Source of the DNA: an uncultured Lachnospiraceae bacterium
GTDB taxonomy: Bacteria > Bacillota > Clostridia > Lachnospirales > Lachnospiraceae
Reading direction: 5' to 3'
DNA length: 50,119 nt
Assembly (NCBI GenBank): GCA_947385425.1
Contig: CANDKY010000013.1
Location: 1-50,119, forward strand
In this document: positions 5,157-50,119 of the stretch, one piece after another
Numbering within the stretch: position 1 is the stretch's first letter
Layout: every line of letters starts with the position of its first letter
Notes under the pieces: model-generated
Seen by the model: the letters and a program-made list of their open reading frames with translations, nothing else
The model's database searches: none
Told to the model about the DNA's origin: nothing
Program-made: the position numbers and the translations under genes

Positions 5157-5218
5157 TTTTCTTCCCTAATTTATACTGCACACTGCAGACCGCCTCAGGT
5201 ACCTTTCGGGTTGCGTTA

Positions 5219-5410
5219 CCAATGTCATTAACTTAAGCTTTTCGGGGTGCTGCAGACCATATATCTCAATCCGGACCATTGAAAGACGCCGACACTTAAG
5301 CGACGTGTTTTGGCGCCTTAGTGCCGTTGCGTCTGCCGCTGCGCGAAAGCGCGTCCGGTTGAGATATGTGGTCTGCAGCGCTCCGGGAAGCTTAAGTTAA
5401 TGACATTGGC
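5219..5410. mobile_element. MITE-like palindromic element with putative 7-8 bp target duplication
   Basis: The left arm (5219-5275, beginning CCAATGTCATTAACTTAAGC) and right arm (5354-5409, ending GCTTAAGTTAATGACATTGG) are near-perfect inverted repeats of about 56 bp. Most mismatches are G-T compatible or lie in one small patch. The sequence TGCGTTA occurs immediately outside both ends (5212-5218 and 5411-5417), as expected of a target-site duplication, and the next base (C) also matches. The centre contains smaller hairpins, including GCGC-GAAA-GCGC at 5341-5352. There is no transposase; mobilisation in trans would be needed. The parent insertion-sequence family is not recognised. Confidence 0.75.
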
Positions 5411-5445
5411 TGCGTTACTGTAAATTCTGGCAGTCTGCAGTATCG

Positions 5446-5555
5446 TTCCGTAATCCCTACGCCGGTGTCTTCCCTGCAGAACAAATACCGGCTGACTTCA
5501 CTCATACTCCATCCATCCTGTATTTCCTCTGTGCTCCGGCGTTGGGATTACTGTT
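5446..5555 (-). repeat. Intercistronic hairpin module abutting the casA stop codon
   Basis: Sixteen-base arms at 5450-5465 (GTAATCCCTACGCCGG) and 5536-5551 (CCGGCGTTGGGATTAC) pair with one mismatch. The plus-strand flanks, TTCCG on the left and CTGTTTT on the right, are the constant ends shared with modules near 32.2, 45.6 and 50.0 kb. On the transcribed strand the AAAACAG end overlaps the casA stop codon. Unlike the other copies, this one is now separated from the next gene's ribosome-binding site by the MITE-like element. Confidence 0.65.
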
Positions 5556-15936: not shown

Positions 15937-16196
15937 CTGATTTTCCTCCTTTTTCTATTCCGCACCTAACTCCCGTTCGCCCGCTCCAGCGGGTACTTAA
16001 ATCAGGATAGTGACATCCTTGATTCCGCACTAACCAACATGCTGCCGCCCTGCGGCAGCAAAAAACCGCCATGAAAAACCTGGAAGAATGCCTGCTTTCC
16101 AAGGCATTCTTCCGTGTGAAATGGATTTGCCATACATGGCAAATCCTAGAAGTTCTTAGGCAGCGTACTTTGCTGCCTTAGAACTTCTTTTCACAC
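15937..16196. repeat. Cluster of extragenic hairpins between the GT4 and dehydrogenase genes
   Basis: This gap is almost entirely inverted repeats. In plus-strand order they are: AGGATAGTGACATCCT near 16012, GCTGCCGCC..GGCGGCAGC-type pairing near 16040, GGAAGAATGCC/GGCATTCTTCC at 16082-16113, and a composite element at 16115-16196 bounded by TGTGAAA/TTTCACA. The composite encloses GGATTTGCCAT/ATGGCAAATCC and AAGTTCTTAGGCAGC/GCTGCCTTAGAACTT stems. The last unit is homologous to the tandem array at 44.1-44.5 kb. Its edge supplies the TGA stop of the GT4 gene. Confidence 0.75.
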
Positions 16197-17273
16197 TTCG
16201 CACTTTATCACTTCCTCCAAATACGCGCCAATCACCTTTCTCCTGTCAAATTCCCTCTCCATTTTCGCACGTGCCGCCCTTCCCATCCGGGCCTTCTCTT
16301 CCCGTGGAAGAGCAAGGAATTTCTCCATTGCCCCTATCAGCTCCTCCGCACTGCCCGGCGTAAAACCGAACCCTGTCACACCTTCCTCAAAAGCCTCCCG
16401 GCAGCCGCTGATATCCGATGCAATCACCGGACGCCCCGTGGCGGCCGCCTCGATCAGCGCGTTGGACATCCCCTCGTGAAAAGATGCCACCACAATGGCG
16501 CAGGCTTTTGCCAGAAAAGGATGCACCTCCGTATGGAACCCCCATTGCCTGATAACCCCTTTATCCTCATAATCATTCAAAAGTTCCTGATAATCCTCAT
16601 CGCAATAACCCAATATGGCAAATTCCACATCCTCCCTGTGCAGCCGCACTGCCGCCTCGAGGAATTCCAGAATCCCCCGCTCCTTCATTACCCGTCCTAC
16701 AAAAAGGAAAACAGTCTTCCCGCCTTCCGGGTATTCCTCAAAAGTATGCCGGACAAGGTTCACACCGGAACCGTTTACAAGCCTTGCCTTCTTCCCACGG
16801 ATGCCGTATCCCTCAAAAATCCCTTTATTCTCCGTATTCTGGAAGAAAATGCATTCCGCCTTCTTAAGCCCCGTCCGGTACATCGCAATAATCATTTTCA
16901 GGAATAACCCCTTCCGGTCAAAAGCGCCTCCCAGCCCGGTAATTGTTGCCATGTAAGGAATCCCGGACAGCCTGCAGGCAAATCCGCCGTAAATATTAGG
17001 TTTAATCGTATAGGTAATCACCAAATCCGGTTTTACCTGTTTTAAAAGCTTCCGATAGGTGAGAAACAGCTTCCCGTCCTCCTTCGGATTCACACCCCTC
17101 CTGTTGATGGGTGTCCTGATGATTCCGCAGCCTTCCGCTTCCAGTTCCCTTACCTTCGTATCATCCGGAAGGCTGATGATTACCCTGTGTTTTTCCAACA
17201 ATCCCACCAGCAGTTCATTGCGGAAATCATACAATCCGCCGGAAGAATTTGTTAATATAAGTATCGTACCCAT
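16191..17273 (-). CDS. Glycosyltransferase family 4 (PglA-like)
   Basis: A 360-residue GT-B retaining glycosyltransferase. The N-terminal domain (ILILTNSSGGLYDFRNELL, VITYTIKPNIYGGFACRLSGIPYMATITGLG) is typical of enzymes that add HexNAc to lipid-linked sugars, as in PglA/CapM-like proteins. The C-terminal nucleotide-sugar domain has FLFVGRVMKERGILEFLEA and SFHEGMSNALIEAAATGRPVIASD, with the EGMSNALIEA motif for donor binding. It probably adds the second sugar after the PglC-like reaction. SD AGGTAGG overlaps the stop of the ATP-grasp gene just upstream. Confidence 0.88.
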   Translation of the reverse strand: MGTILILTNSSGGLYDFRNELLVGLLEKHRVIISLPDDTKVRELEAEGCGIIRTPINRRGVNPKEDGKLFLTYRKLLKQVKPDLVITYTIKPNIYGGFACRLSGIPYMATITGLGGAFDRKGLFLKMIIAMYRTGLKKAECIFFQNTENKGIFEGYGIRGKKARLVNGSGVNLVRHTFEEYPEGGKTVFLFVGRVMKERGILEFLEAAVRLHREDVEFAILGYCDEDYQELLNDYEDKGVIRQWGFHTEVHPFLAKACAIVVASFHEGMSNALIEAAATGRPVIASDISGCREAFEEGVTGFGFTPGSAEELIGAMEKFLALPREEKARMGRAARAKMEREFDRRKVIGAYLEEVIKCEV

Positions 17274-20300: not shown

Positions 20301-22244
20301 TTATGACCCTGCTCCTTCCTCACTTTTATAATGGTACGTAGGAACAATCTCATGAATCAGCGGCCTGATATCCCCACTCTCATTCTTCGATTCCTCCTTT
20401 AACTTCTTTAACTGGGCAAAAAAGCGCATCTCATCAATCTCTATGGGCCTTCCTACATGTATCAGCTTATTCGCCGTCTCCTTCATGCCCTCCTCGTCCA
20501 TCAGAAGCTCTTCATAAAGCTTTTCACCAGGCCTTAACCCGGTAAATTCTATCTTGATATCCTCACCGACCCGATAACCGGACAAACGGATCAGATTTTC
20601 CGCCAAATCGAGGATTTTCACCGGCTCCCCCATATCCAGCACAAAGATTTCCCCGCCCTTCGCATAAGCGCCTGCCTGTAAGACAAGGGACACGGCCTCC
20701 GGTATTGTCATAAAATAACGGATAATGTCCGGATGGGTCACCGTCACAGGCCCGCCCGCCATAATCTGTTTCCGGAACAGCGGAATCACACTTCCGTTGC
20801 TGCCAAGCACATTCCCGAAACGGACCGCCACAAATTCCGTTTCGTAATGATTATTGAATGTCTGTATAATCATCTCGCAGATCCGCTTGCTCGCCCCCAT
20901 AATATTCGTCGGGTTCACCGCCTTATCCGTGGAAATCAGGACAAACTTCTTCACACCGTAAAAAGCCGCCGCCTGCACAGTCTTCCATGTGCCGAACACA
21001 TTGTTCTTCACCGCCTCGTTGGGGCTGTCCTCCATCAGCGGCACATGCTTGTGCGCCGCCGCGTGGTATACAATATCCGGCCTGTATTTCTCAAAAATCC
21101 AATTCATCCGGTTTGTATTCCTCACCGAAGCGATCAGCACGGTCATTTTCAGTTCCGGATATTTCGTTTTTAACTCCTGCTGTATATCATATACATTATT
21201 TTCATAAATATCAAGGATTACCAACTGCCCCGGCTTATGGCTCGCTATCTGACGGCAAAGCTCGCTCCCGATGGAACCGCCGCCCCCGGTCACCAAAACT
21301 GTTTTATTCTGCACATATCCAAGGATGGAATCCAGATCCACACTGATCGGATCCCTGCCCAACAAATCCTCCACTTCCACATCCCGCAGCTTACTCACAT
21401 TCACTTCGCCGTTCACAAGCTGGTACATCCCCGGGAGAGAACGCAGCTTACAGTTCGTTTCCTTGCATATCTCCAGAATCTGGCGCATCTCCGAACGGGA
21501 TATGGCAGGCATCGCCACGATTATCTCATCGATATCATAAATATCCGCACTCTCTACAATCTTGTCCCGGCCTCCCGTCACCCGGATTCCCTGAATATAC
21601 TTCCCCCATTTTTCCTTGTCATCATCAATAATGCACTTTATAACCATTGTGCTGAAGTTGCTGTTTACAATCTCCTTGATAATCACATTCCCGGCCTCTC
21701 CGGCCCCAATAACCATGACCGAAATCACATTTTTCTTATTCTGCAGCTTATGCTTATGGCTGCGCAGGAACCGATAAGAAAAACGGCTGGCAAAAATCAT
21801 ACTGATCAGCACAAACATATATAGAAAATAATAGCTCCTCGGCACCGGCTGCCCCGCTGTCTTGAAAAACTGCAGCCCCACGCTGTTCACCACCGTGGAT
21901 GCCACGCCGGCCATCACCAGGTTCTGCAGTTCCGTTTCCCCCGCGAAAGCCCACAGGCTGTGATACATCCGGAAAAAATAGAAAATACACAGGGTCAGCA
22001 AAATATTCAGCACGAGAAACTGGTTGATCGGCGCCAGGAAGTGTTCGGGCACCTCATCCGGCCGGAATTCATAACGGATCATTACAGCCATATAGCTTGC
22101 AAATATAATACTGATCACATCATAAATAATCAGGGCCGTACGGCGGTAAAACAGCTTCACATTGAAAGGTTTCTTTTCTCTATTTTTTTGATTTTTTTCT
22201 TGCTTTTCCTGCATTTTTCCCATTGTTCTTTTCACCCATATCAA
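20301..22244 (-). CDS. Membrane UDP-GlcNAc 4,6-dehydratase (PglF/CapD-like)
   Basis: The 647-residue protein has four N-terminal membrane helices (from about residue 30 to 165), a CoA-binding-like Rossmann segment (VISVMVIGAGEAGNVIIKEI), and a C-terminal SDR dehydratase domain with LVTGGGGSIGSELCRQI, a TDKAVNPTNIMGASKR catalytic region and FVAVRFGNVLGSNGSVIPLF. These are hallmarks of PglF/WbpM-type UDP-GlcNAc 4,6-dehydratases, making the 4-keto substrate for the adjacent PglE-like enzyme. The start is uncertain: ATGs at 22244, 22223 and 22214 all lie in the lysine/glutamate-rich overlap with the preceding gene, and none has a clear SD. Confidence 0.9.
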   Translation of the reverse strand: MIWVKRTMGKMQEKQEKNQKNREKKPFNVKLFYRRTALIIYDVISIIFASYMAVMIRYEFRPDEVPEHFLAPINQFLVLNILLTLCIFYFFRMYHSLWAFAGETELQNLVMAGVASTVVNSVGLQFFKTAGQPVPRSYYFLYMFVLISMIFASRFSYRFLRSHKHKLQNKKNVISVMVIGAGEAGNVIIKEIVNSNFSTMVIKCIIDDDKEKWGKYIQGIRVTGGRDKIVESADIYDIDEIIVAMPAISRSEMRQILEICKETNCKLRSLPGMYQLVNGEVNVSKLRDVEVEDLLGRDPISVDLDSILGYVQNKTVLVTGGGGSIGSELCRQIASHKPGQLVILDIYENNVYDIQQELKTKYPELKMTVLIASVRNTNRMNWIFEKYRPDIVYHAAAHKHVPLMEDSPNEAVKNNVFGTWKTVQAAAFYGVKKFVLISTDKAVNPTNIMGASKRICEMIIQTFNNHYETEFVAVRFGNVLGSNGSVIPLFRKQIMAGGPVTVTHPDIIRYFMTIPEAVSLVLQAGAYAKGGEIFVLDMGEPVKILDLAENLIRLSGYRVGEDIKIEFTGLRPGEKLYEELLMDEEGMKETANKLIHVGRPIEIDEMRFFAQLKKLKEESKNESGDIRPLIHEIVPTYHYKSEEGAGS

Positions 22245-25095
22245 AAAGCAGAGGCGCCAGTACCAGCATCAGTAAAAATCCCGCGGGATTGCACAAATGG
22301 AAGATCCATTCCACCAACCCTGCCATGGCAAACGCGGTAAGCACCGCCACAGGCATTGCCGCGCACGGCACTTCCTTCTTCTTTTTATAGTAAATACAGC
22401 CCTGTACAAAGGACGCCGCCCCGACCAGCACAAATACGATACCGACAATAATGCCATGGTCATATGCCACCTGCAGATAAATATTATGCGCATGTACGGC
22501 AAGCGAACCATCCGGCAGTACAGCCCCCATCTCATCATGCCCTTCCAGATTCAATTCCCCCAGATAAGCCTTAAAAATATCCATCCGGCCGTTGGCATAA
22601 GCTTCCGTCTTTTCATACACGCTCATGTCTTCCCCTGCATCTTCTTCCTTTTCCTCCTCATCGTTTGTAAAATCACCTTCCAGCGCTTCCTTCTCCCGTT
22701 CCGCTGCCGCCGCATCATCGGCGGCGCGCTCTTCCTCTGTCTTCGTACCGATAATATTCAGCGTTCTCCCGCCGCTTGAGACGGTATCCGTCCCCCCGGC
22801 TCCCGCCGCGTTTCCGCCATCTGCCGCATTGCCGCCTTCCGCCTCGCTGCCGCCTTCTGCTGCATTGCCGCCTTCCGCTTCGCTGCCGCTATCTGCCGCG
22901 TTGCCGCCTTCCGCCTCGCTGCCGCCATCTGCTGCATTGCCGCCTTCCGCCTCGTTACCGCCATCTGCCGCATCCGCGGCTCCGTCTTCCATATCCATTT
23001 CCTCTATGTCGCCTTCCCAGATCACTTCCCCTTTATTATTGTAACGCTTCGCCAGATACCTCTGGTACTCTTCGCTTCTTTCATAAGAATTGCTTCCGCC
23101 TTCCGGGATACCGAAAATTTTGTTGTTAAACACTTCCATAAACCGGCTTATGTTAATAAAATACATGGAATCCGGCTCCGCCCCCCTTGTAATGACATCG
23201 GGAAACTCCTCTACCTCATACCGGTACACATCGCCCCACACTGCCGGAAGAAGCCTCTGCGCCGTAAAGATCATCGGGAAACACCACGCCAGGGAAACAG
23301 CCATAGCCGCAACCAGCCACGCAACTCCCACGATCCTGCGCTTTCCCATATCTGCGGCAGCCAGCACAAATACGGCAAGCATCATCACCCCGACTGCCAG
23401 GAACCCGGTCCTTGACGCCGTAAACATCATATAAGTCCCCGATACGCCAAACAACAGCAGCTCCTTCCCCATACATTTTATCATGTGCTCCCCATTGCCC
23501 TTCCAATATTCCATATAACGGCCCAGAAGCACCAGAAACGCCGCGCACATAATAAACGCCATATATACCGCAGTCACGGTCACGGTATGGAAAATAAAAG
23601 GATAACGCGGGTATATCCATGCCAAAAACGGCCTGCGCGCAAAACAGAACAGCATACTGCATAAAAAGTTCAGCACCAGCCCGTTACATATATTCTGCAG
23701 CAAATGCGCCCTTTTATCCCAAAATGCATAACGGATATAAAACAGCGCAAAAGCGACGGCCATCGCTACCGTCCACCATCTCGTATTTCGGAATATTACA
23801 AGAAGGGCCAGAAACACACCGATCACTGCCCCATACCATATACTCAGGCGCACGATCCGCTTCTTCCGCCTCCTCAGGATCTGGCAGAGAATACTTACCG
23901 CCAAAAGGCCGCCAAGCGCCGCTGCCGCCATCCCCCAGCGCAGTATCCTGAGATCCCACTCATCCATAGCCAGATAATCCACATAAATACTTCGGTACCA
24001 TAAAATAACCCCGGCCGCTATCACCGCATAGATTAACGTAAGCCTGTTCCAGATATCCCTTTTCCTGCACATCACAAGCGCCGACAAAGCCAGGAAAACC
24101 ATAAGCTGGCGCTCCGCTACCCTGTGATGGATTTCATACAGGCCATTCATATAATTACAGCATGCCCATATCGCCGCCGCAAAAAATATTGCCTGCAGAT
24201 AATCGGCCCCGTTCTTCTTCCACCTTTCGGCTATCGGCACATACTTATCCCTCTCCTTCTTTTGGTTAACAAGATAAAACAATGTTATACCGGCCAGCAG
24301 GATCCCGGCAGTATAAAAAATATTATCCACCCACCTGCCGCTGAACAGCCTCCGTATACTGACAAACCAGAGCGCGGCCGCAGTCCCTGCCGCTGTCAGC
24401 CCGTTCAAAGACATACGTACCATGTACTCCACAGTAACCAGCCGTTCCTTTTTCGTAAGCCTCACATACAGCTCCACCGCTGCCACAAGCACTGCCATCA
24501 CCGCTGCCAGTATTACATCATACCGAAACACCTTATCCTTGCGCAAAGGGACTGTATAATTGTACTCGCCTATAATATTATAACCTTCCAGCTCATCATA
24601 ATTATAAATAAGCCTGCTCACATAAGGCGTCCCGGCATTCTCCGTCTCCTCCAGCCCGAACCACACCCGGCTGCCCTTCACTCCCTGCAGGAAAAAATAA
24701 TAATCCTTTGACACTTCCAGATCTTCGTTAATATAAATCGGGCAGAAACCCGGAATATCGATAAACCTCACATCCACCTGCTGTTCAAACATAATCTGCA
24801 TGTCCGAATCCAGCATACGGAACAGGAAATAATCCACCCTCTGGTCATAATCCCACCCGTTCTGAAAATCCACAACATATAAATTAATCGTCCCCAAATG
24901 GTCATACTGCGCAATAAACCGCTGCAGCAGATAATCCTCCCCCACACTGTCGGAAGAACCGGCCATTCTCTGGTTACTTACGGAAGGGATCGTCTCTTCC
25001 CACAGCCGCAGCGGATATACCGTCAGCATGGCAAAAAGAGTCAGCAATATGATAATACACTGTACAGCCCGGCTTTGCTTTACCACTTTATACAT
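22180..25095 (-). CDS. O-antigen ligase/polymerase-like protein (Wzy/WaaL family) with a repeat insert
   Basis: A 971-residue protein with more than ten membrane helices. The conserved C-terminal HAHNIYLQVAYDHGIIVGIVF matches the periplasmic-loop and helix motif of Wzy/WaaL ligases, which join or polymerise lipid-linked glycans. An N-terminal extracytoplasmic domain (about 30-185) follows the first helix. Residues about 690-770 in the large external loop are a Gly/Ala/Glu/Asn-rich tract with a 12-residue repeat (36 bp, see repeat entry), followed by a very acidic segment. The extreme C-terminus is lysine-rich and overlaps the dehydratase start. Whether it polymerises or ligates cannot be decided. 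Confidence 0.82.
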   Translation of the reverse strand: MYKVVKQSRAVQCIIILLTLFAMLTVYPLRLWEETIPSVSNQRMAGSSDSVGEDYLLQRFIAQYDHLGTINLYVVDFQNGWDYDQRVDYFLFRMLDSDMQIMFEQQVDVRFIDIPGFCPIYINEDLEVSKDYYFFLQGVKGSRVWFGLEETENAGTPYVSRLIYNYDELEGYNIIGEYNYTVPLRKDKVFRYDVILAAVMAVLVAAVELYVRLTKKERLVTVEYMVRMSLNGLTAAGTAAALWFVSIRRLFSGRWVDNIFYTAGILLAGITLFYLVNQKKERDKYVPIAERWKKNGADYLQAIFFAAAIWACCNYMNGLYEIHHRVAERQLMVFLALSALVMCRKRDIWNRLTLIYAVIAAGVILWYRSIYVDYLAMDEWDLRILRWGMAAAALGGLLAVSILCQILRRRKKRIVRLSIWYGAVIGVFLALLVIFRNTRWWTVAMAVAFALFYIRYAFWDKRAHLLQNICNGLVLNFLCSMLFCFARRPFLAWIYPRYPFIFHTVTVTAVYMAFIMCAAFLVLLGRYMEYWKGNGEHMIKCMGKELLLFGVSGTYMMFTASRTGFLAVGVMMLAVFVLAAADMGKRRIVGVAWLVAAMAVSLAWCFPMIFTAQRLLPAVWGDVYRYEVEEFPDVITRGAEPDSMYFINISRFMEVFNNKIFGIPEGGSNSYERSEEYQRYLAKRYNNKGEVIWEGDIEEMDMEDGAADAADGGNEAEGGNAADGGSEAEGGNAADSGSEAEGGNAAEGGSEAEGGNAADGGNAAGAGGTDTVSSGGRTLNIIGTKTEEERAADDAAAAEREKEALEGDFTNDEEEKEEDAGEDMSVYEKTEAYANGRMDIFKAYLGELNLEGHDEMGAVLPDGSLAVHAHNIYLQVAYDHGIIVGIVFVLVGAASFVQGCIYYKKKKEVPCAAMPVAVLTAFAMAGLVEWIFHLCNPAGFLLMLVLAPLLFDMGEKNNGKNAGKARKKSKK
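22831..22974 (-). repeat. 36-bp tandem repeat, four copies, inside the ligase-like gene
   Basis: Four contiguous 36-bp units start at 22831, 22867, 22903 and 22939, with a partial unit before the first. Each encodes twelve residues of the type NAADGGSEAEGG. The period is a multiple of three, so copy-number change would lengthen or shorten the external loop without a frameshift. Units differ mainly by single-base changes, consistent with repeated slippage or recombination. Confidence 0.92.
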
Positions 25096-31042: not shown

Positions 31043-32162
31043 AAAACTCCTTCACTTTTCCGGCAATATAATCCACTTCTTCCTCCGTCAGCTTATAAAA
31101 CATAGGGAGCCTCAGCAGCCGTTCGCTCTCCTTCGTCGTATACCGGTCTTCCCCGTGGAACCGCCCGAATTTTATCCCCGCGGGAGCCGAATGCAGCGGC
31201 ACATAGTGGAACACTGCCAGAATATTATTCGCCTTCAAAAAGTTAATCAATGCTCCCCTCTCTTCCAGATCCTTTGTTTTAATATAAAACATGTGGGCAT
31301 TATGTGTACACTCTTTTGGTATAAACGGCAGTTCTATCTTCCCGGCCTCCGCCAGCGGCGATAACAGTTCCCAATAACGGTTCCACCTCGCCAGACGGGT
31401 TTCGTTGATTTCATCAGCCATTTCCAACTGCGCATACAGATAAGCCGCGTTCATATCACTGGGCAGATAAGAGGAACCGTAATTCATCCACCGGTACTTG
31501 TCCACCTGTCCGCGGTAATATTTGCTCCTGTCCGTCCCCTTCTCCCTGAAAATCTCCGCGTCCTCAATATACTTTTTGTCCCGGATAAGCAAAGCGCCGC
31601 CTTCCCCCATACTGTAATTTTTCGTCTCGTGGAAGCTGAAACAGCCGAAATCACCGATTGCCCCCAATGCCCGCCCTTTATAAGAAGCCATAATCCCCTG
31701 TGCGGCATCCTCAATAACGAACAGCCCATGCCGCTTCGCTATGTCCATAATCCTGTCCATCTCACAGCCGACACCGGCATAATGGACCACCGCAATGGCT
31801 TTCGTCCTCTCCGTCACGGCCGCCTCTATCAGGTTTTCATCAATATTCATCGTGTCGGGCCGGATATCCACAAATACCGCTTTCGCCCCCCGCAGGACAA
31901 AAGCGTCCGCCGTGGACACAAAGGTGTAGGAAGGCATAATCACCTCATCCCCTTCCCCAATGTCCGCCAGCAATGCTGTCAGCTCCGTTGCATGCGTACA
32001 GGAAGTCGTCAGCAGGCACTTTTCCGTACCTGTCCTCTCTTCAATCCACTCGCTGCATTTCCTCGTAAACTCCCCGTCCCCGCATATCTTCTGGTTTTCC
32101 ACTGCCTGACGGATATAGTCCATCTCCTTCCCCGTAAACGGGGGTACATTAAAATTAATCAT
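31032..32162 (-). CDS. dTDP-4-amino-4,6-dideoxygalactose transaminase (WecE/RffA-like)
   Basis: A 376-residue DegT-family aminotransferase. NFNVPPFTGKEMDYIRQAV, GDGEFTRKCSEWIEERTG and TTSCTHATELTALL are WecE-like; IEDAAQGIMASYKGRALG holds D152 and the PLP lysine is K181 in SFHETKNYSMGEGGAL. WecE converts dTDP-4-keto-6-deoxyglucose to dTDP-4-amino-4,6-dideoxygalactose. No dTDP-glucose dehydratase is in the window, so its keto-sugar would come from elsewhere. The GNAT domain of the nearby fusion would acetylate the amine. The SD AGGAGG 6 nt before the ATG is continuous with the end of a hairpin module. Confidence 0.9.
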   Translation of the reverse strand: MINFNVPPFTGKEMDYIRQAVENQKICGDGEFTRKCSEWIEERTGTEKCLLTTSCTHATELTALLADIGEGDEVIMPSYTFVSTADAFVLRGAKAVFVDIRPDTMNIDENLIEAAVTERTKAIAVVHYAGVGCEMDRIMDIAKRHGLFVIEDAAQGIMASYKGRALGAIGDFGCFSFHETKNYSMGEGGALLIRDKKYIEDAEIFREKGTDRSKYYRGQVDKYRWMNYGSSYLPSDMNAAYLYAQLEMADEINETRLARWNRYWELLSPLAEAGKIELPFIPKECTHNAHMFYIKTKDLEERGALINFLKANNILAVFHYVPLHSAPAGIKFGRFHGEDRYTTKESERLLRLPMFYKLTEEEVDYIAGKVKEFYGA

Positions 32163-32166
32163 AAGT

Positions 32167-32278
32167 CCTCCTATTCCAGTCCCGCATCTGTGTGAAAAAT
32201 GCCCCCTCTATGGGAAGATTTCCGGCCGCAACCGCGTCCCGAAATCCTCCCGGGCATTTTTCACACAGATGCTGTTTT
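32167..32278 (-). repeat. Intercistronic hairpin module between two polysaccharide genes
   Basis: A perfect 21-bp inverted repeat (32184-32204 and 32252-32272, beginning GCATCTGTGTGAAAAATG) encloses further pairing GGGAAGATTTC/GAAATCCTCCC. On the transcribed strand the module begins AAAACAG right after the stop codon of the upstream membrane-protein gene and ends CGGGACTGGAATAGGAGG, so its last bases are the SD of the WecE-like gene. Shared flanks link it to modules near 5.5, 45.6 and 50.0 kb. It has no U-run after the stem in the direction of transcription, so it is not a normal terminator. Confidence 0.8.
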
Positions 32279-38860: not shown

Positions 38861-38978
38861 GCCTCTGCCCTCCACCCGGTTTTTAAAGCTTTCTGCACCC
38901 GCTATAATCCCTTTCATAAATCCCCCTTTACCCCCTGATTTCCCAACCGAACCAAACATATTCCAGTTCCGGCTCCGC

Positions 38979-42781: not shown

Positions 42782-44047
42782 TTACCGTTCCCATTCCACC
42801 GTAATAAATCCCATCGCTCTTCTTCCTATTTCCATGGCTTCCTCCGGCGTAGGCGCACAGGTAATAATATGCCCCAGGCGGTCATTGCTGGACTTCGTCC
42901 CATGCACCTCATCCCCGGGTTTCTTATAAATATCAACTTCCTCCACACCTTCTAACCGGTGCACCTCTTCCGCCACGGAGATCTTCCGGATTATGCCTTC
43001 CCCTGCCGGGAGGAAATGGATCGCCGCACCGCCCTGCCATTTCGGCCGGACATCCACTTTCCCGCCTGCCGCCAGTTCCACGGATGCCCCTACCAGATCC
43101 ACCCCTGTGGAAAGGGGCACTAATTTGGATGTAATAAAATCTCCTCCCAGCCTTGCCGCCAGCTCCACCACTTTCGGCCCCTGCGGAGTCACCTTGATTT
43201 CCGTATGGGAAGGGCCGTTGCAAAGCCCTATCGCTTTCACTGCCTGCAGCGCGACCTGCCGGATCTGCTCCTGCACCTCCCTTTCCAGCCTGCTCGGTTC
43301 GCAATGGGCCAGCTCCACGAAATAAGGAGGCGGAGTAATATACTTATCCGTAATTGCGACGATGTGCGTCTCCCCTTCCACCGTCAGCGCCTCTACGCTT
43401 ACCTCCGCGCCGGACATAAATTCCTCAGCCATCACCACCCCATTCCTGGAATGGCTCCTGCTGTACTCATAAACAGCCCTTAATCCCTCTTCCCCTCCCT
43501 CATTTTCGTTTCCATCCCGTCTCCCACAGCCTTCCCGCCCTGCACTTCCGTCCCCGCTCCCCTTCTTCCCTTCCAGCAATACTACCCCGCGGCTCCCCGC
43601 GTTATCGGCAGGCTTCACGATACAATACCCTCCCAGACGTTCCACTGCGTCCCGGAAACCTTCAAAATCCGCCGCCGCATAATACTCCGGAATCGGGACA
43701 CCGTTTTCCTTCAGCCGCTTTCTCATATCGCTTTTTACCGTAGCGCAGAAAGAATCCATATAAGACAAATCCGGCCGTTTCCCCAGCTTTTCATTCACAT
43801 ATGCCGCCGTCCTTACCGGCCCGTCGCTGGTAGAAGTGATCACCACATCCGGCTGATAAACCAGAGCCTGCCGGTAAACCTCTTCCTGATCCATAGTACT
43901 GACCACCAACTTCACATCCGCCAGGGAAAAACCCACCGCATTTTCATCATAATCCACAAGAATTACCTTATACCCAAGTTCCTTTGCTTTCTTAATCGCA
44001 GGCACCTGCAAAGCGCTGGCCCCCAGAATCATCATCTTTTTCTCCAT
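42782..44047 (-). CDS. ATP-grasp family ligase in the pseudaminic-acid cluster
   Basis: A 421-residue carbamoyl-phosphate-synthase-like ATP-grasp protein. MMILGASALQVPAIKKAKELG begins the PurK-like N-domain; CIVKPADNAGSRGVVLL is the ATP loop, AEEFMSGAEVSVEALTV and TEIKVTPQGPKVVELAARLGGDF the metal site, and a C-terminal lid follows. A glycine/glutamate-rich insert (about residues 165-195) is unusual. The family ligates carboxylates to amines; here it may add an acyl or amino-acyl group to the nonulosonic acid or its precursor, which is inference from context. The ATG at 44045-44047 follows SD GAAGGGC. Confidence 0.78.
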   Translation of the reverse strand: MEKKMMILGASALQVPAIKKAKELGYKVILVDYDENAVGFSLADVKLVVSTMDQEEVYRQALVYQPDVVITSTSDGPVRTAAYVNEKLGKRPDLSYMDSFCATVKSDMRKRLKENGVPIPEYYAAADFEGFRDAVERLGGYCIVKPADNAGSRGVVLLEGKKGSGDGSAGREGCGRRDGNENEGGEEGLRAVYEYSRSHSRNGVVMAEEFMSGAEVSVEALTVEGETHIVAITDKYITPPPYFVELAHCEPSRLEREVQEQIRQVALQAVKAIGLCNGPSHTEIKVTPQGPKVVELAARLGGDFITSKLVPLSTGVDLVGASVELAAGGKVDVRPKWQGGAAIHFLPAGEGIIRKISVAEEVHRLEGVEEVDIYKKPGDEVHGTKSSNDRLGHIITCAPTPEEAMEIGRRAMGFITVEWER

Positions 44048-44520
44048 ACTGCCCTTCATTCCCTCCCGGCAACCTTCGACGCCTTAGAGCTTCTCTTCCC
44101 ACCAATCAGCCCGGAACAGCCCGGAAGAATGCCCTCCCCTTGGGCATTCTTCCATGTGAAATGGATTTGCAATGCTACGCATGGCAAATCCTGGAAACTC
44201 TTAGGCGGCGTCCTTTGACGCCTTAGAGTTTCTTTTCACACAAATCAGCCCGGAATAGCCCGGAAGAATGCCCTCTTTTGGGGCATTCTTCCATGTGAAA
44301 TGGATTTGCAATGCTACGCATGGCAAATCCTAGAAACTCTTAGGCGGCGTCCTTTGACGCCTTAGAGTTTCTTTTCACACAAATCAGCCCGGAATAGCCC
44401 GGAAGAATGCCCTCTTTTGGGGCATTCTTCCATGTGAAATGGATTTGCAATGCTACGCATGGCAAATCCTAGAAACTCTTAGGCGGCGTCCTTTGACGCC
44501 TTAGAGTTTCTTTTCACATT
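44048..44520. repeat. Tandem array of a 139-bp multi-hairpin repeat (three copies plus a fragment)
   Basis: Copies run 44104-44242, 44243-44381 and 44382-44520; the last two are almost identical. About 25 bp of a fourth copy (GACGCCTTAGAGCTTCTCTTCC) remain near 44079-44100. Each copy folds as GGAAGAATGCCC/GGGCATTCTTCC, then a TGTGAAA/TTTCACA-bounded unit containing GGATTTGC/GCAAATCC and AAACTCTTAGGCG/CGCCTTAGAGTTT stems. No coding frame is present. The edge of copy three supplies the pseI TGA stop, as a related unit does for the GT4 gene at 16191. Confidence 0.92.
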
Positions 44521-45554
44521 ACGTGCTGCCAGGAAAGTGGTGTCCCCCGCGCGATATCCCCCCGTGCCTTCTTCCCCAGCACTTCTTCATAGTACATCGG
44601 GGACATGCCGAAAGCGGGCCGGATGGAACGCATATTTTCTTCCGTGAAAACCTCCCCGGCCTTCATATCCTTTACCACAAACAGGGATCTGCCCTCTTCC
44701 CTGCTCCTTTCCTGTTTCTCCGTCAGCTCATAAGTCACCTTGCCCAATGCCTTTTCCACGATACGCACTTCCTCCGCCATCCGCTTAAATTCGGCCGGCT
44801 CCATGGAAAACGCCGCATCCGGCCCTCCATCCGCCCTTGACAGCGTGAAGTGTTTTTCTATCATCCTTGCCCCCAGCGCGACACTGGCAACCGCCACCGC
44901 AGTTCCCATACTGTGATCCGACAGCCCTGTCAGACAGCCAAACACCTGCGCCATATTAGGAATCACTTTAATATTCATATCTTCGTACGGCGTAGGATAT
45001 GTGGAAGTGCATTTTAACAAAATAATCTGGTTATTCCCTTCCTCCCTGCATACCCGCACCGCCCTCTCAATATCCTCCAGACGGGCAATGCCCGTAGCCA
45101 TAATCACCGGTTTTCCCAGCTTCGCAATCTTGCGTATCAACGGGATATCCCTTATTTCAAAGGAAGCCACCTTATAAGCCGGCATCCCCATCTCCTCCAT
45201 AAAATCCACCGCCGTAGAATCAAACGGGGAAGAAAAACACTCCATTCCCAGTTCATTGGCCAGCTTCATCAGCTTCGGCTGCCACTCCCAGGGCGTATAA
45301 GCCTCCTGGTACAGCTTATAAAAAGTAGTCCCGTCCCAGATCGTCCCCTGTTTAATCTGGAAAAAATCGTTATCACAATCCATGGTAATCGTATCCGATG
45401 TATAAGTCTGCAGTTTTACCGCATCCGCCCCCGCTTCCTTCGCCGCACGGACCAACGCCTCCGCCCGGCCGTAATCCTGTAAGTGGTTCGCCGATAACTC
45501 CGCTACAATAAATGTCCTTTCCCCTTCCCCTAAATTACGCTTCCCGATTTTCAT
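44514..45554 (-). CDS. pseI: Pseudaminic acid synthase
   Basis: This 346-residue NeuB-family enzyme condenses phosphoenolpyruvate with 2,4-diacetamido-2,4,6-trideoxy-L-altrose to form pseudaminic acid. The N-terminal TIM barrel has FIVAELSANHLQDYGRA, AVKLQTYTSDTITMD, CFSSPFDSTAVDF, LKCTSTYPTPYEDMNI, LSDHSMGTAVAVASVALGARMIEKHFTLSRADGG, and a C-terminal antifreeze-like (SAF) domain from about 285 (SLFVVKDMKAGEVFTEENMRS). YPTPYEDMNI, FSMEPAEF and overall layout fit PseI better than NeuB or LegI. SD AGGAG is part of the end of a hairpin module; the stop lies in the 139-bp repeat. Confidence 0.9.
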   Translation of the reverse strand: MKIGKRNLGEGERTFIVAELSANHLQDYGRAEALVRAAKEAGADAVKLQTYTSDTITMDCDNDFFQIKQGTIWDGTTFYKLYQEAYTPWEWQPKLMKLANELGMECFSSPFDSTAVDFMEEMGMPAYKVASFEIRDIPLIRKIAKLGKPVIMATGIARLEDIERAVRVCREEGNNQIILLKCTSTYPTPYEDMNIKVIPNMAQVFGCLTGLSDHSMGTAVAVASVALGARMIEKHFTLSRADGGPDAAFSMEPAEFKRMAEEVRIVEKALGKVTYELTEKQERSREEGRSLFVVKDMKAGEVFTEENMRSIRPAFGMSPMYYEEVLGKKARGDIARGTPLSWQHVM

Positions 45555-45561
45555 TTTTCTT

Positions 45562-45787
45562 CTCCTATTCCAGTACCGCTTTTACCCAATCAGAGCCTTC
45601 CCCCACAGAAGAATTCCTGCCCCTAATGCTGGTCAGTAATTCTTCTGGGCTCTGCTTGGGTAAAAGCTGTTTTCCAGTACCGCCAATCCCCCTCCAGAGC
45701 CCACTCCCTGCAGAAGAATTCCTGCCCTTAATGCCGGTCAGTAATTCTTCTGGGCTCTTCCGGGGCATTGGCTGTTTTCCGGTACCG
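45562..45787 (-). repeat. Two tandem intercistronic hairpin modules between pseF and pseI
   Basis: Copy A (45579-45666) has outer stem CTTTTACCCA/TGGGTAAAAG; copy B (45683-45771) has CCAATCCCC/GGGGCATTGG. Both share AGAGCC/GGGCTCT and a central AGAAGAATT/AATTCTTCT stem. The spacers CTGTTTTCCAGTACCG (45667-45682) and CTGTTTTCCGGTACCG (45772-45787) are constant, giving a 104-bp period. Outer stems differ in sequence but stay paired. On the transcribed strand the array ends CGGTACTGGAATAGGAG, the SD of pseI, while its start is read as the C-terminus of PseF. Confidence 0.88.
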
Positions 45788-46472
45788 CTTTCACCATCAT
45801 TTGGTATTTGATTTCTGCCAGTTTCCAATCTGAGGGGTTGTCAATGTCCTGCACTTCCATTTCGGACACCTCCATCGGCACATAGCCGTCCGGCAAGTCC
45901 CCCCTGCATGCCCGGTAACGTTCCACATGATAACAGTAAAACTGCCCGCAGTCGTGATACATCTTTTCCAAATCCTGGGAGCGCTTCATGGCATTTTCCG
46001 GGTAGCAGTACTGCAGCCTGCCATCCCGCACTGCCATCCCTCTCTGCGGCGGAAAGGAAAAGCCCACCACGGGCATAACCCCTGAAGCATCTTTTTCTTT
46101 TAAAAGAGCCATTGCTTCCCTCAGCTTCTGTGCCGTGACAAACGGCGCTGTCGGGTAAATGCAGGCCATATATTCAAATTTCCTGCCCCGTTTTTCGTAT
46201 TCTTCCAGCACTTCCATCAGCACATCATCCGTAGTGGCGTAGTCATTCGCTGTGGCCTGGCTTCTCATAAAAGGCACCGCCGCGCCTGCCTTTCCGGCAA
46301 TGTCCGCTATCTCCCCATCATCCGTAGACACCATGACTTCCTCAAATAACCCGGAGGAAAGCGCCGCTTCGATAGAATAGCAGACAATCGGTCTGCCCAA
46401 AAATTCTTTCTTATTTTTACCCGGTATTCTTTTGCTGCCGCCCCGGGCCGTTATGATCGCTATTGAACCCAT
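45738..46472 (-). CDS. pseF: Pseudaminic acid cytidylyltransferase
   Basis: This 244-residue CMP-sugar synthetase activates pseudaminic acid with CTP. IAIITARGGSKRIPGKNKKEFLG is the nucleotide-binding motif; VMVSTDDGEIADIAGKAGA and YMACIYPTAPFV follow, and RSQDLEKMYHDCGQFYCY is characteristic of PseF rather than NeuA. The last 15 or so residues (VPENSQCPGRAQKNY) are encoded by the first hairpin module, so the natural C-terminus has probably been replaced or extended by the repeat. The ATG has AAAAGGACGG upstream. Confidence 0.9.
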   Translation of the reverse strand: MGSIAIITARGGSKRIPGKNKKEFLGRPIVCYSIEAALSSGLFEEVMVSTDDGEIADIAGKAGAAVPFMRSQATANDYATTDDVLMEVLEEYEKRGRKFEYMACIYPTAPFVTAQKLREAMALLKEKDASGVMPVVGFSFPPQRGMAVRDGRLQYCYPENAMKRSQDLEKMYHDCGQFYCYHVERYRACRGDLPDGYVPMEVSEMEVQDIDNPSDWKLAEIKYQMMVKAVPENSQCPGRAQKNY

Positions 46473-48922: not shown

Positions 48923-49951
48923 TTACCTTCCCCGCGCTTTCCGCCATCTTCTGTATGCCCACAGTGCTTTATAATACAACATAAAAAGCAGCGTAGACTT
49001 CTGCTGCATCCGGATCAGTTTCCTTTCCTCCGCGTGGGTGCGTGCCAGATAATAGGGATTCTGCTCAAAATCCGGAAAGGTCTGCTTCATTTCTTTTCCC
49101 ATTGCCTTCACAAAACCATATTTCGTCTTTCCCACGCCTGCCATATAAGTAAACAGCGTATTGATGTAAAACAGAAGCGTAAAACTATATTCCAGTTCCG
49201 GCACGTAATCTTCGTAATATCCGTGCCTTTTCGCCTCCCCCAGCATCAGCCGTCCCGCTTCCATACGGTCTTCGCATCTTTTTTCGGAAATCGTATGTAC
49301 CGTGGACGTGTCATGCTGATAATAATAATATAGAGGTTCCTCTATATATTCAAAATGTTCCGCCAGCACCAGATAGGAATTGCCCAGGGCATTGTCTTCA
49401 TAGAAAATATCTTCCGGGAACCAAAGCTTGTGTTCCAGAATCATAGAACGCCGGAAAATCTTTACCACCAGGCTGCCGCCGTCCAATATCAGGCTCCGCC
49501 GTCTCTCTTCATTCAAAATACCGCTCTGGCTGCGCTTATTGTTCGGGACCACCTGCCCTACCTTCATCGAATGCTCTTGCGTCAGGCTGTAATCGCATCC
49601 CGCCAGATCCGCCCCGGCCGCCTCTGCCCGGGCAACCAGCCGCTCATACATATCCTCCGCGATCCAGTCGTCACTGTCAATAAAACCTATCCAGTCGCCC
49701 TTTGCCAGCTTCAGCCCGATGTTCTTCGCCCCGCCCTGATGCCTGTTCACCTCCGAGTGGACTGCATGGAATTTATCCGGGTAACACTTCTCATAATTTT
49801 GTAATATCGACAGGGAATTGTCCGTAGAACAATCATCCACCGCTATTATTTCATAATCCTGTATCGTCTGGCGGACAAGGGAATCAAGACAGTATTCCAG
49901 CTTTCCGTCCGCCGCCATATTATAAACCGGAACAATAATACTAAGCTTCAT
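48923..49951 (-). CDS. Glycosyltransferase family 2
   Basis: A 342-residue GT2 (GT-A fold). KLSIIVPVYNM, IIAVDDCSTDNSL, QGGAKNIGLKLAKGDWIGFIDSDDWI with the DSDD metal motif, and DIFYEDNALGNSYL (ED base region) are all present; the C-terminal 100 residues are helical and basic, suggesting membrane-surface association. Donor and acceptor are unknown. The ATG at 49949-49951 follows SD GGAGGGAAC, which is continuous with a hairpin module; the longer in-frame extension is encoded by that module and is rejected. Confidence 0.88.
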   Translation of the reverse strand: MKLSIIVPVYNMAADGKLEYCLDSLVRQTIQDYEIIAVDDCSTDNSLSILQNYEKCYPDKFHAVHSEVNRHQGGAKNIGLKLAKGDWIGFIDSDDWIAEDMYERLVARAEAAGADLAGCDYSLTQEHSMKVGQVVPNNKRSQSGILNEERRRSLILDGGSLVVKIFRRSMILEHKLWFPEDIFYEDNALGNSYLVLAEHFEYIEEPLYYYYQHDTSTVHTISEKRCEDRMEAGRLMLGEAKRHGYYEDYVPELEYSFTLLFYINTLFTYMAGVGKTKYGFVKAMGKEMKQTFPDFEQNPYYLARTHAEERKLIRMQQKSTLLFMLYYKALWAYRRWRKARGR

Positions 49952-50119
49952 GTTCCCTCCATTCCAGTTCCGCGTTAGGTGCAAAAATGTCCCACACAGG
50001 GAAGAATTTCCGGTCACATCCGTGCCCTGAAATCCTTCCGGACATTTTTCCTCCTAACGCTGTTTTCCAGTTCCGCGTTAGGTGCAAAAATGTCCCACAC
50101 AGGGAAGAATTTCCGGTCA
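49952..50119 (-). repeat. Tandem intercistronic hairpin modules upstream of the GT2 gene (cut by the window edge)
   Basis: Copy 1 spans 49973-50059, with stems CGTTAGG/CCTAACG and AAAAATGTCC/GGACATTTTT, and an inner GGGAAGAATTTC/GAAATCCTTCC pairing. The constant spacer CTGTTTTCCAGTTCCG (50060-50075) follows and copy 2 starts at 50076, identical to copy 1 over all 44 visible bases; the period is 103 bp. On the transcribed strand the end CGGAACTGGAATGGAGGG contains the SD of the GT2 gene. The inner part resembles the module at 32.2 kb, but the outer stem differs. Confidence 0.85.

Follow-up and report, generated by a model that had tools for sequence, protein, structure and literature searches.

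A dispersed, non-coding repeat with RNA structure has probably been multiplying in certain Lachnospiraceae by being copied, in the sense direction, to the 5′ edge of Shine-Dalgarno (SD) sequences. The repeat is a hairpin of about 103 nt whose inner part is conserved and whose end, GGNACTGGAAT(A), is constant. Copying into SDs is the favoured reading because one end of the repeat is constant and lies at the SD, the other end is ragged, the copies nearly always have one orientation, tandem arrays are formed, the occupied sites are lineage-specific and the sequence constraint is of the type expected for a transcript. The window analysed here is a stretch of 50,119 nucleotides (C13:1-50119) of the draft genome G000 (4.42 Mb, 198 contigs).

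An earlier note on this DNA had described a family of hairpin modules at about 5.5, 32.2, 45.6 and 50.0 kb, and this family is real, with matches to a covariance model (R1) at all four sites (Table 1). R1 was trained on 46 units. These include the 32174 and 49962 copies, which match by construction, but neither the 45.6-kb pair nor the copy at 5.5 kb. Fold z-scores of five window units range from -4.3 to -10.4, with energies of -39 to -63 kcal/mol. On the minus strand at 45.6 kb, two tandem units occupy positions 45568-45775, with a cytidylyltransferase gene upstream and a NeuB-family gene downstream. The linkers of this array start at 45568, 45672 and 45777 (periods of 104 and 105), and the 16-nt spacer, described earlier as constant between tandem copies, reads CGGTACTGGAAAACAG. 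That the modules run directly into the SD of the next gene holds at 32.2, 45.6 and 50.0 kb (unit 32174-32275, for example, runs into the TAGGAGG of a DegT/DnrJ-type aminotransferase gene with its ATG at 32162), but not at 5.5 kb, where the copy is diverged, no SD follows directly and a separate large palindrome stands between the copy and the next gene. This palindrome is a large inverted repeat, CCAATGTCATTAACTTAAGCTT...AAGCTTAAGTTAATGACATTGG, located at about 5200-5430 between the diverged module and the start of cse2 in the cas operon. A solo linker, CGGAACTGGAAT, occurs at 38961-38971 right before an ATG without recognisable SD and is possibly a collapsed array.

Table 1. Repeat units of the window and the features that adjoin them.
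Feature	Position	Strand	Remarks
Diverged unit between cse1 and cse2, CRISPR cas operon	5442..5554	-	44.5 bits; 3′ linker decayed
Single unit, top window match	32174..32275	-	99.9 bits; z -10.4
Downstream gene, NeuB family + SAF	44514..45554	-	Next after the 45.6-kb array
TAGGAG, made up of the last T(A) of the repeat and the SD of the NeuB-family gene	45562..45567	-	ATG at 45554
3′ (second) unit of the 45.6-kb array	45568..45670	-	ACA, outer stem GCTTTTACCCAA/TTGGGTAAAAGC, inner hairpin, GGTACTGGAA; covariance model 79.4 bits; fold -49.9 kcal/mol, z -6.4
5′ (first) unit of the 45.6-kb array	45672..45775	-	Outer stem GCCAATGCCCC/GGGGGATTGGC; 74.5 bits; z -5.9
Left linker CGGTACCGGAA of the 45.6-kb array	45777..45787	-	Within the 3′-terminal part of the upstream ORF
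Upstream ORF, cytidylyltransferase, PF02348	45738..46472	-	Last 12 codons and stop inside the first unit
Unit ahead of TGGAGG of a glycosyltransferase gene	49962..50063	-	88.9 bits; ATG at 49951
Upstream unit of the 50.0-kb array	50065..50119	-	26.4 bits; 5′ side cut by the window end

The unit (103 model positions), frequently found in tandem, consists of ACA, the 5′ arm of an outer stem, an inner hairpin with a 3′ bulge, the 3′ arm of the outer stem and the linker GGNACTGGAA, which in the last unit of the 45.6-kb array continues as TAGGAG...ATG. RNAalifold predicts 30 pairs from the alignment of the 46 units, 24 of them with changes on both sides. Cells are paired in 89.8% of cases versus 72.8% in shuffles (0/500 reach the observed value) and 35-47% when slid, a figure that leans towards structure because the structure was derived from the same alignment; the covariation score is 0.509 versus 0.203, and both-side changes amount to 252 versus 76. 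This covariation upholds the earlier description of outer stems that differ between copies while both arms change together. Beyond the first three pairs the sequence of the outer stem is free, only the outermost GCA/TGC being near constant: the 14-nt arms form 186 distinct pairs among 210 units, and 121 of the 10-nt 5′ arms are distinct among 145 units (one unit per array). When the nine outer pairs of 145 units, one per array, were inspected for non-Watson-Crick cells, 45 G.U, 10 A.C, 102 purine-purine and 10 pyrimidine-pyrimidine cells were counted. The excess of G.U over A.C (p 2e-6 over all units; 26 against 6 in G000, 19 against 4 elsewhere) points to the sense transcript as the selected molecule, whereas upkeep of a palindrome at the DNA level predicts equality. 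Selection thus likely acts on the sense transcript, unless mutation is strand-biased, which could also generate the G.U excess. The RNA-level constraint implied by the earlier proposal of an RNA element is supported by covariation, G.U over A.C and the single orientation. Within arrays, 11 of 39 adjacent unit pairs have an outer-stem identity below 0.75; core identity in these is 0.80-0.98 in ten and 0.53 in one, and this rewriting of stems may reflect drift under a pairing constraint, gene conversion of the core or another process.

The position of the repeat relative to genes was analysed in 156 arrays, of which 60 derive from named contigs (among the matches listed), 54 from G000, 21 from G013, 12 from G028, six from G009 and three from G006. 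In 134 of them the start codon of a same-strand ORF of at least 50 codons lies 5-31 nt past the last linker (median 13; 124 ATG), and the combination of SD, ATG and ORF follows 117/147 arrays versus 389/7350 random same-strand positions (5.3%). The other 22 arrays comprise eight that are followed by another unit whose linker is a variant, five that reach the end of the locus and nine that are startless within 32 nt; inspected by eye, five of these nine seem to be continuing arrays and four remain (L053, L089, L143, L165). On the upstream side, a sense ORF ends within -400 to +130 nt in 137 of the 146 arrays with upstream room, and within -60 to +10 in 91 of them. Some copies are located in 5′ leaders instead of between genes, for example after the T-box-like terminator of an ileS-like gene and after promoter-like sequences ahead of genes resembling rex and guaB (by eye). 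The rule is therefore a position immediately 5′ of the SD, not an operon-internal one. The downstream genes share no theme that could be recognised by eye in 97 translations.

Searching G000 and related genomes with the covariance model revealed many further units. G000 contains 276 occurrences of the end motif CGGNACTGGAA versus 4 of its reversed control, a count that includes some occurrences in coding sequence and hence not only repeat copies. R1 finds at least 134 matches in G000. Five congeners have at least 82, 68, 51, 24 and 4 matches, respectively, and the remaining 10 of the 16 genomes of the genus have none (best 150 candidates per genome, E <= 0.001). In a sample of the family with one genome per genus, matches occur in 6/250 genomes, G000 included (E <= 1e-8), and each of these six contains at least 11 to at least 16 matches (best 16 candidates scored); the zeros of this sample are less certain, as they rest on the best 16 candidates and stricter filters. 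Genomes thus have either no match or many. Among the matches listed for named genomes, which include chance matches from unrelated phyla, most arrays come from records whose titles read Lachnospiraceae, Clostridia or uncultured bacterium. The loci L107 (Acetatifactor muris), L139 (Roseburia sp. 1XD42-69), L179 and L199 were rejected as hosts because a recurrent coding sequence, CGGAACTGGAAGAAATC..., is the sole source of their arrays; these rows were part of a first array set (119) and are excluded from the second (156).

Comparison of orthologous sites indicates that occupancy changes between closely related species. Over 15 G000 sites, the covariance model detects a unit at 1/52 relative loci, the clpP-like gene of G013 (73.8 bits), with all other loci at 15.7 bits or less. 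The array of G000 at a yebC-like gene is absent in 15/15 congeners and that at the ileS-like gene in all 13 readable congeners. Thirteen more G000 genes were compared in the two closest congeners: in G013, 10 of 11 readable sites are without complete unit and the clpP-like gene carries a different array, and in G014 none of 10 readable sites has a complete unit. Relatives often show compact or overlapping stop/SD arrangements at the compared junctions, and some apparently empty ones may hold decayed remnants (by eye, for instance in G013 ahead of the aminotransferase gene of L054 and in G014 ahead of the ybaB-like gene). In the reverse test, five G013 sites were located in the G000 stretches examined: three are empty, another is occupied in both genomes by different units and the fifth is apparently a decayed remnant. 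One G028 site is empty in G000. The junctions at the clpP-like gene and at a glycosyltransferase gene are occupied in both G000 and G013, and five orthologous junctions are occupied twice among named contigs, mostly with different stems and cores, with L154/L193 as a close pair (neighbour protein 99% identical). The earlier suggestion of a REP-like mobile family hence survives as regards dispersal (1/52 relative loci; genomes with none or many), and not as regards membership of the REPs.

Other palindromes occur at similar places. In G013, G014 and G005, repeated palindromes of the form ..GAGTAGGGAAGA..TTCCCTACTCGATT.. are found in purA-, leuA- and ileS-like leaders. In three G009 loci (L082, L085, L087) a different hairpin, GTCCTAAGGAATCC..CCTTAGGAC, lies directly left of the array, so that more than one palindrome family is stacked at a junction. 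The window itself contains a second palindromic family, GTGTGAAAAGAAnnTCTAAG...CTAAGAnnTTTCTAGGATTT...TTTCACACGGAAGAATGCC, which is also located between cistrons and has stem letters that vary between copies. It occupies 44067-44518, where three copies of 139 bp stand in tandem, and 16059-16200; a loose signature of this family occurs 17 times in 420 kb when both strands are counted. An 18-bp periodic repeat is present at 22760-22989 within ORF 22180-25095.

The two ends of the repeat differ markedly. A constant sequence, ...CTGGAAT(A), forms the 3′ end and is followed by the SD: the base after CTGGAA is T in 134/134 cases and TA follows in 116, whereas TA stands ahead of GGAG in only 17/249 element-free genes, which argues that the repeat ends in ...GGAAT(A) with the SD following. 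The best SD is AGGAG or AGGAGG in 34/49 element genes of G000 versus about 25% of 512 others, which would reflect either a preference for strong SDs or a contribution of the repeat to them. The native SD seems kept at ileS and purA and differs from that of relatives at argB and rex; by a simple rule, an SD is absent in 15/134 element genes. At the 5′ side, 108/156 arrays were scored as having no complete unit before their first linker. The piece that precedes it spans 2-110 nt in the 95 arrays measured and is shorter than 80 nt in 84 of them; 68 pieces are below 30 nt (22 of these below 10 nt, amounting to little beyond the linker), 16 are of 30-79 nt and 11 of 80-110 nt, which may be complete but diverged units. 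A constant 3′ end together with variable 5′ truncation, as in SINE/LINE-like elements, is thus what the arrays display, although the ragged left ends could also originate from deletion following tandem duplication. A survey of 420,482 bases (C2, C3, C5, C4 minus its last 5 kb, and the window) yielded nine arrays by linker detection, outside which blastn with whole units adds 19 matches, five in the copies L043 and L038, both overlooked by linker detection, and 14 taken as chance (16-31 nt, E 0.002-0.031). This whole-unit blastn, which also missed the diverged 5.5-kb copy and which old fragments can escape, found no larger fragments without the 3′ half in the 420,482 bases. Left flanks frequently end in GGAA or GGAATAA, and the ragged units blur any target-site duplication.

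A possible, if unlikely, alternative is that the repeat is a REP/MITE-like DNA element, with a transposase recognising hairpin and linker, SD proximity reflecting a purine-rich target preference and tandem arrays arising from repeated insertion at the linker or from slippage. High-copy palindromes, tandem arrays with constant spacers and a patchy distribution would all suit such an element, but conserved terminal inverted repeats are missing beyond the three outermost pairs, raggedness is confined to one end, G.U exceeds A.C and the Y1 transposase does not co-occur. In 13 genomes, Y1_Tnp (PF01797) does not track the repeat: both are present in G000, G006, G009 and G013, the repeat occurs with 0 Y1_Tnp in G028 and G005, and Y1_Tnp occurs without repeat match in G001, G002, G003, G010 and G012. 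For the linked transposase or RAYT that the earlier note had advised looking for, these genomes thus give no tracking Y1 candidate. The reverse transcriptase family RVT_1 (PF00078 only) does not track the repeat in 15 genomes either, as G013 (83% complete) and G028 have the repeat without a PF00078 match and G002, G003, G010 and G012 the match without the repeat, and it was rejected as an obvious driver. No long autonomous form with matching stems was found among the array-bearing stretches examined; within a search range of 0.15-5 kb, the 17 matching-stem pairs are all 170-427 nt apart with a further linker between them in 16/17, and are therefore taken as arrays. Carriage by phages or plasmids was also rejected, since no phage or plasmid record is matched by the 45.6-kb array in blastn (E 1e-5); of the nine viral contigs with the spacer, L210 scores 34.8 bits and L208 and L212 20.2 bits with the model.

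Equally conceivable, though again somewhat unlikely, is an enzyme-free and RNA-free process in which DNA passively switches template at SD-SD microhomology during replication, followed by slippage and deletion at the left edge. This agrees with the constant SD junction, the enrichment of AGGAG-type SDs, the ragged 5′ ends and the lack of a tracking enzyme in the two families tested, but alone it explains neither why 244/250 sampled genera have no match and six have at least 11 nor the upkeep of the fold across genera. In the preferred model of sense copying into SDs, homology between SD sequences would set the 3′ junction, as the AGGAG enrichment suggests. A strand ending at one SD would prime the copying of a repeat attached to another SD, the 5′ end would fall wherever copying stops, and the copied strand could be RNA or DNA. 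Copies would be tolerated for being self-folding and outside coding sequence. A bolder and rather improbable version is a bacterial SINE-like element, in which a transcript ending in an SD is copied into new genes, primed from the anti-SD strand of the target. If true, this would account for a precise 3′ joint at the SD, 5′-truncated tandems and a fixed sense orientation, and it would represent a safe-haven strategy with the SD itself as landing code.

The repeat could instead be an RNA useful to the host (an intercistronic stabiliser, a processing signal or a translation standby site) that has spread mostly through selection for tuning expression. Such a role, which we consider doubtful, is in line with very stable, covarying, sense-only hairpins adjacent to SDs, and with intercistronic stem-loops of Clostridium cellulolyticum tied to transcript ratios in the cited report (PMC4423207); yet the downstream genes have no common theme, most compared sites are unit-free in congeners, 10/16 genomes of the genus are without match and the predicted C. 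cellulolyticum loops lie mainly by 3′ processed ends (27/33, as given in the same report), whereas the present hairpin abuts the next SD. The predicted accessibility of the SD is 0.66 with the unit versus 0.63 with shuffled units (better in 76/121) and 0.67 with the unit deleted, an effect so small that insulation of the SD was rejected as the main reason for the fold. A terminator was rejected as well, since an SD and no U-run follows the hairpin in the 45.6-, 50.0- and 32.2-kb copies. Hairpins of this strength in front of a cistron may nevertheless alter mRNA processing or stability, and with predicted energies of -39 to -63 kcal/mol (five window units) they are unlikely to be inert; a benefit to the host is unnecessary to explain the distribution. 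Very improbable is an old, ancestral intercistronic feature independently lost in relatives, for although some junctions are occupied in two species (G000/G013, and the five among named contigs), shared sites mostly have different stems and cores (L154/L193 being the close exception), only 1/52 relative loci has a unit and stop and SD in relatives are often compact or overlapping.

The repeat would illustrate how a parasite of the genome can occupy compact operons, those of housekeeping genes included, without gene breakage. Because sister species differ through it in the 5′ leaders of many genes, effects of leader hairpins on operon output become testable by natural replicates.

To our knowledge, no other repeat family lands so consistently between stop and SD in one direction. 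Rfam gives 0 matches at gathering score in the window and in 7 loci (106434 bases), and six sub-threshold matches in window positions 43900-46000. Four exact repeat strings of 15-17 bases occur in no open-licence PMC paper, an earlier exact-string search of this literature returned just a 10-base piece among the matches listed, and no topical report of the family was found in it. MITEs such as ERIC, BOX and Correia/NEMIS are non-coding and dispersed, and can be transcribed and fold. By description the present family resembles them in each of these respects. It differs in that its terminal inverted repeats are conserved over just three pairs, that the copies share one orientation and one constant end, and that no target duplication was recognised, which the ragged units would blur. 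SINE/LINE-type retroelements have a constant 3′ end, a ragged 5′ end, tandem forms and a fold at the transcript level, all features of the present repeat; unlike in these elements, no PF00078 reverse transcriptase tracks it and an RNA intermediate is hypothetical. REPs are described as palindromes of 20-40 bp, mostly with GTAG or CGTC tags, and those with GTAG are thought to be moved by RAYTs, a link that the cited part of this work makes for GTAG repeats only (PMC3733652); REPINs also form tandem clusters (PMC3116915). Like the present family, REPs and REPINs are described as numerous short palindromes, clustered in tandem, patchy among species and often located between co-directional genes (PMC3733652; PMC3116915). 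The present unit, in contrast, has about 103 nt and 30 pairs, carries GGNACTGGAA instead of a GTAG or CGTC tag, has a single orientation, abuts the SD and is not associated with a RAYT; membership of the REP/RAYT systems was therefore rejected on size, tag, orientation and transposase co-occurrence. The SRPS stem-loops of cellulolytic Clostridium share with the present hairpins their stability and their location between cistrons of clostridial operons. As portrayed in the cited report (PMC4423207), SRPS loops are locus-specific and mostly near 3′ processed ends, whereas the hairpins described here constitute one dispersed family that abuts the SD of the next gene.
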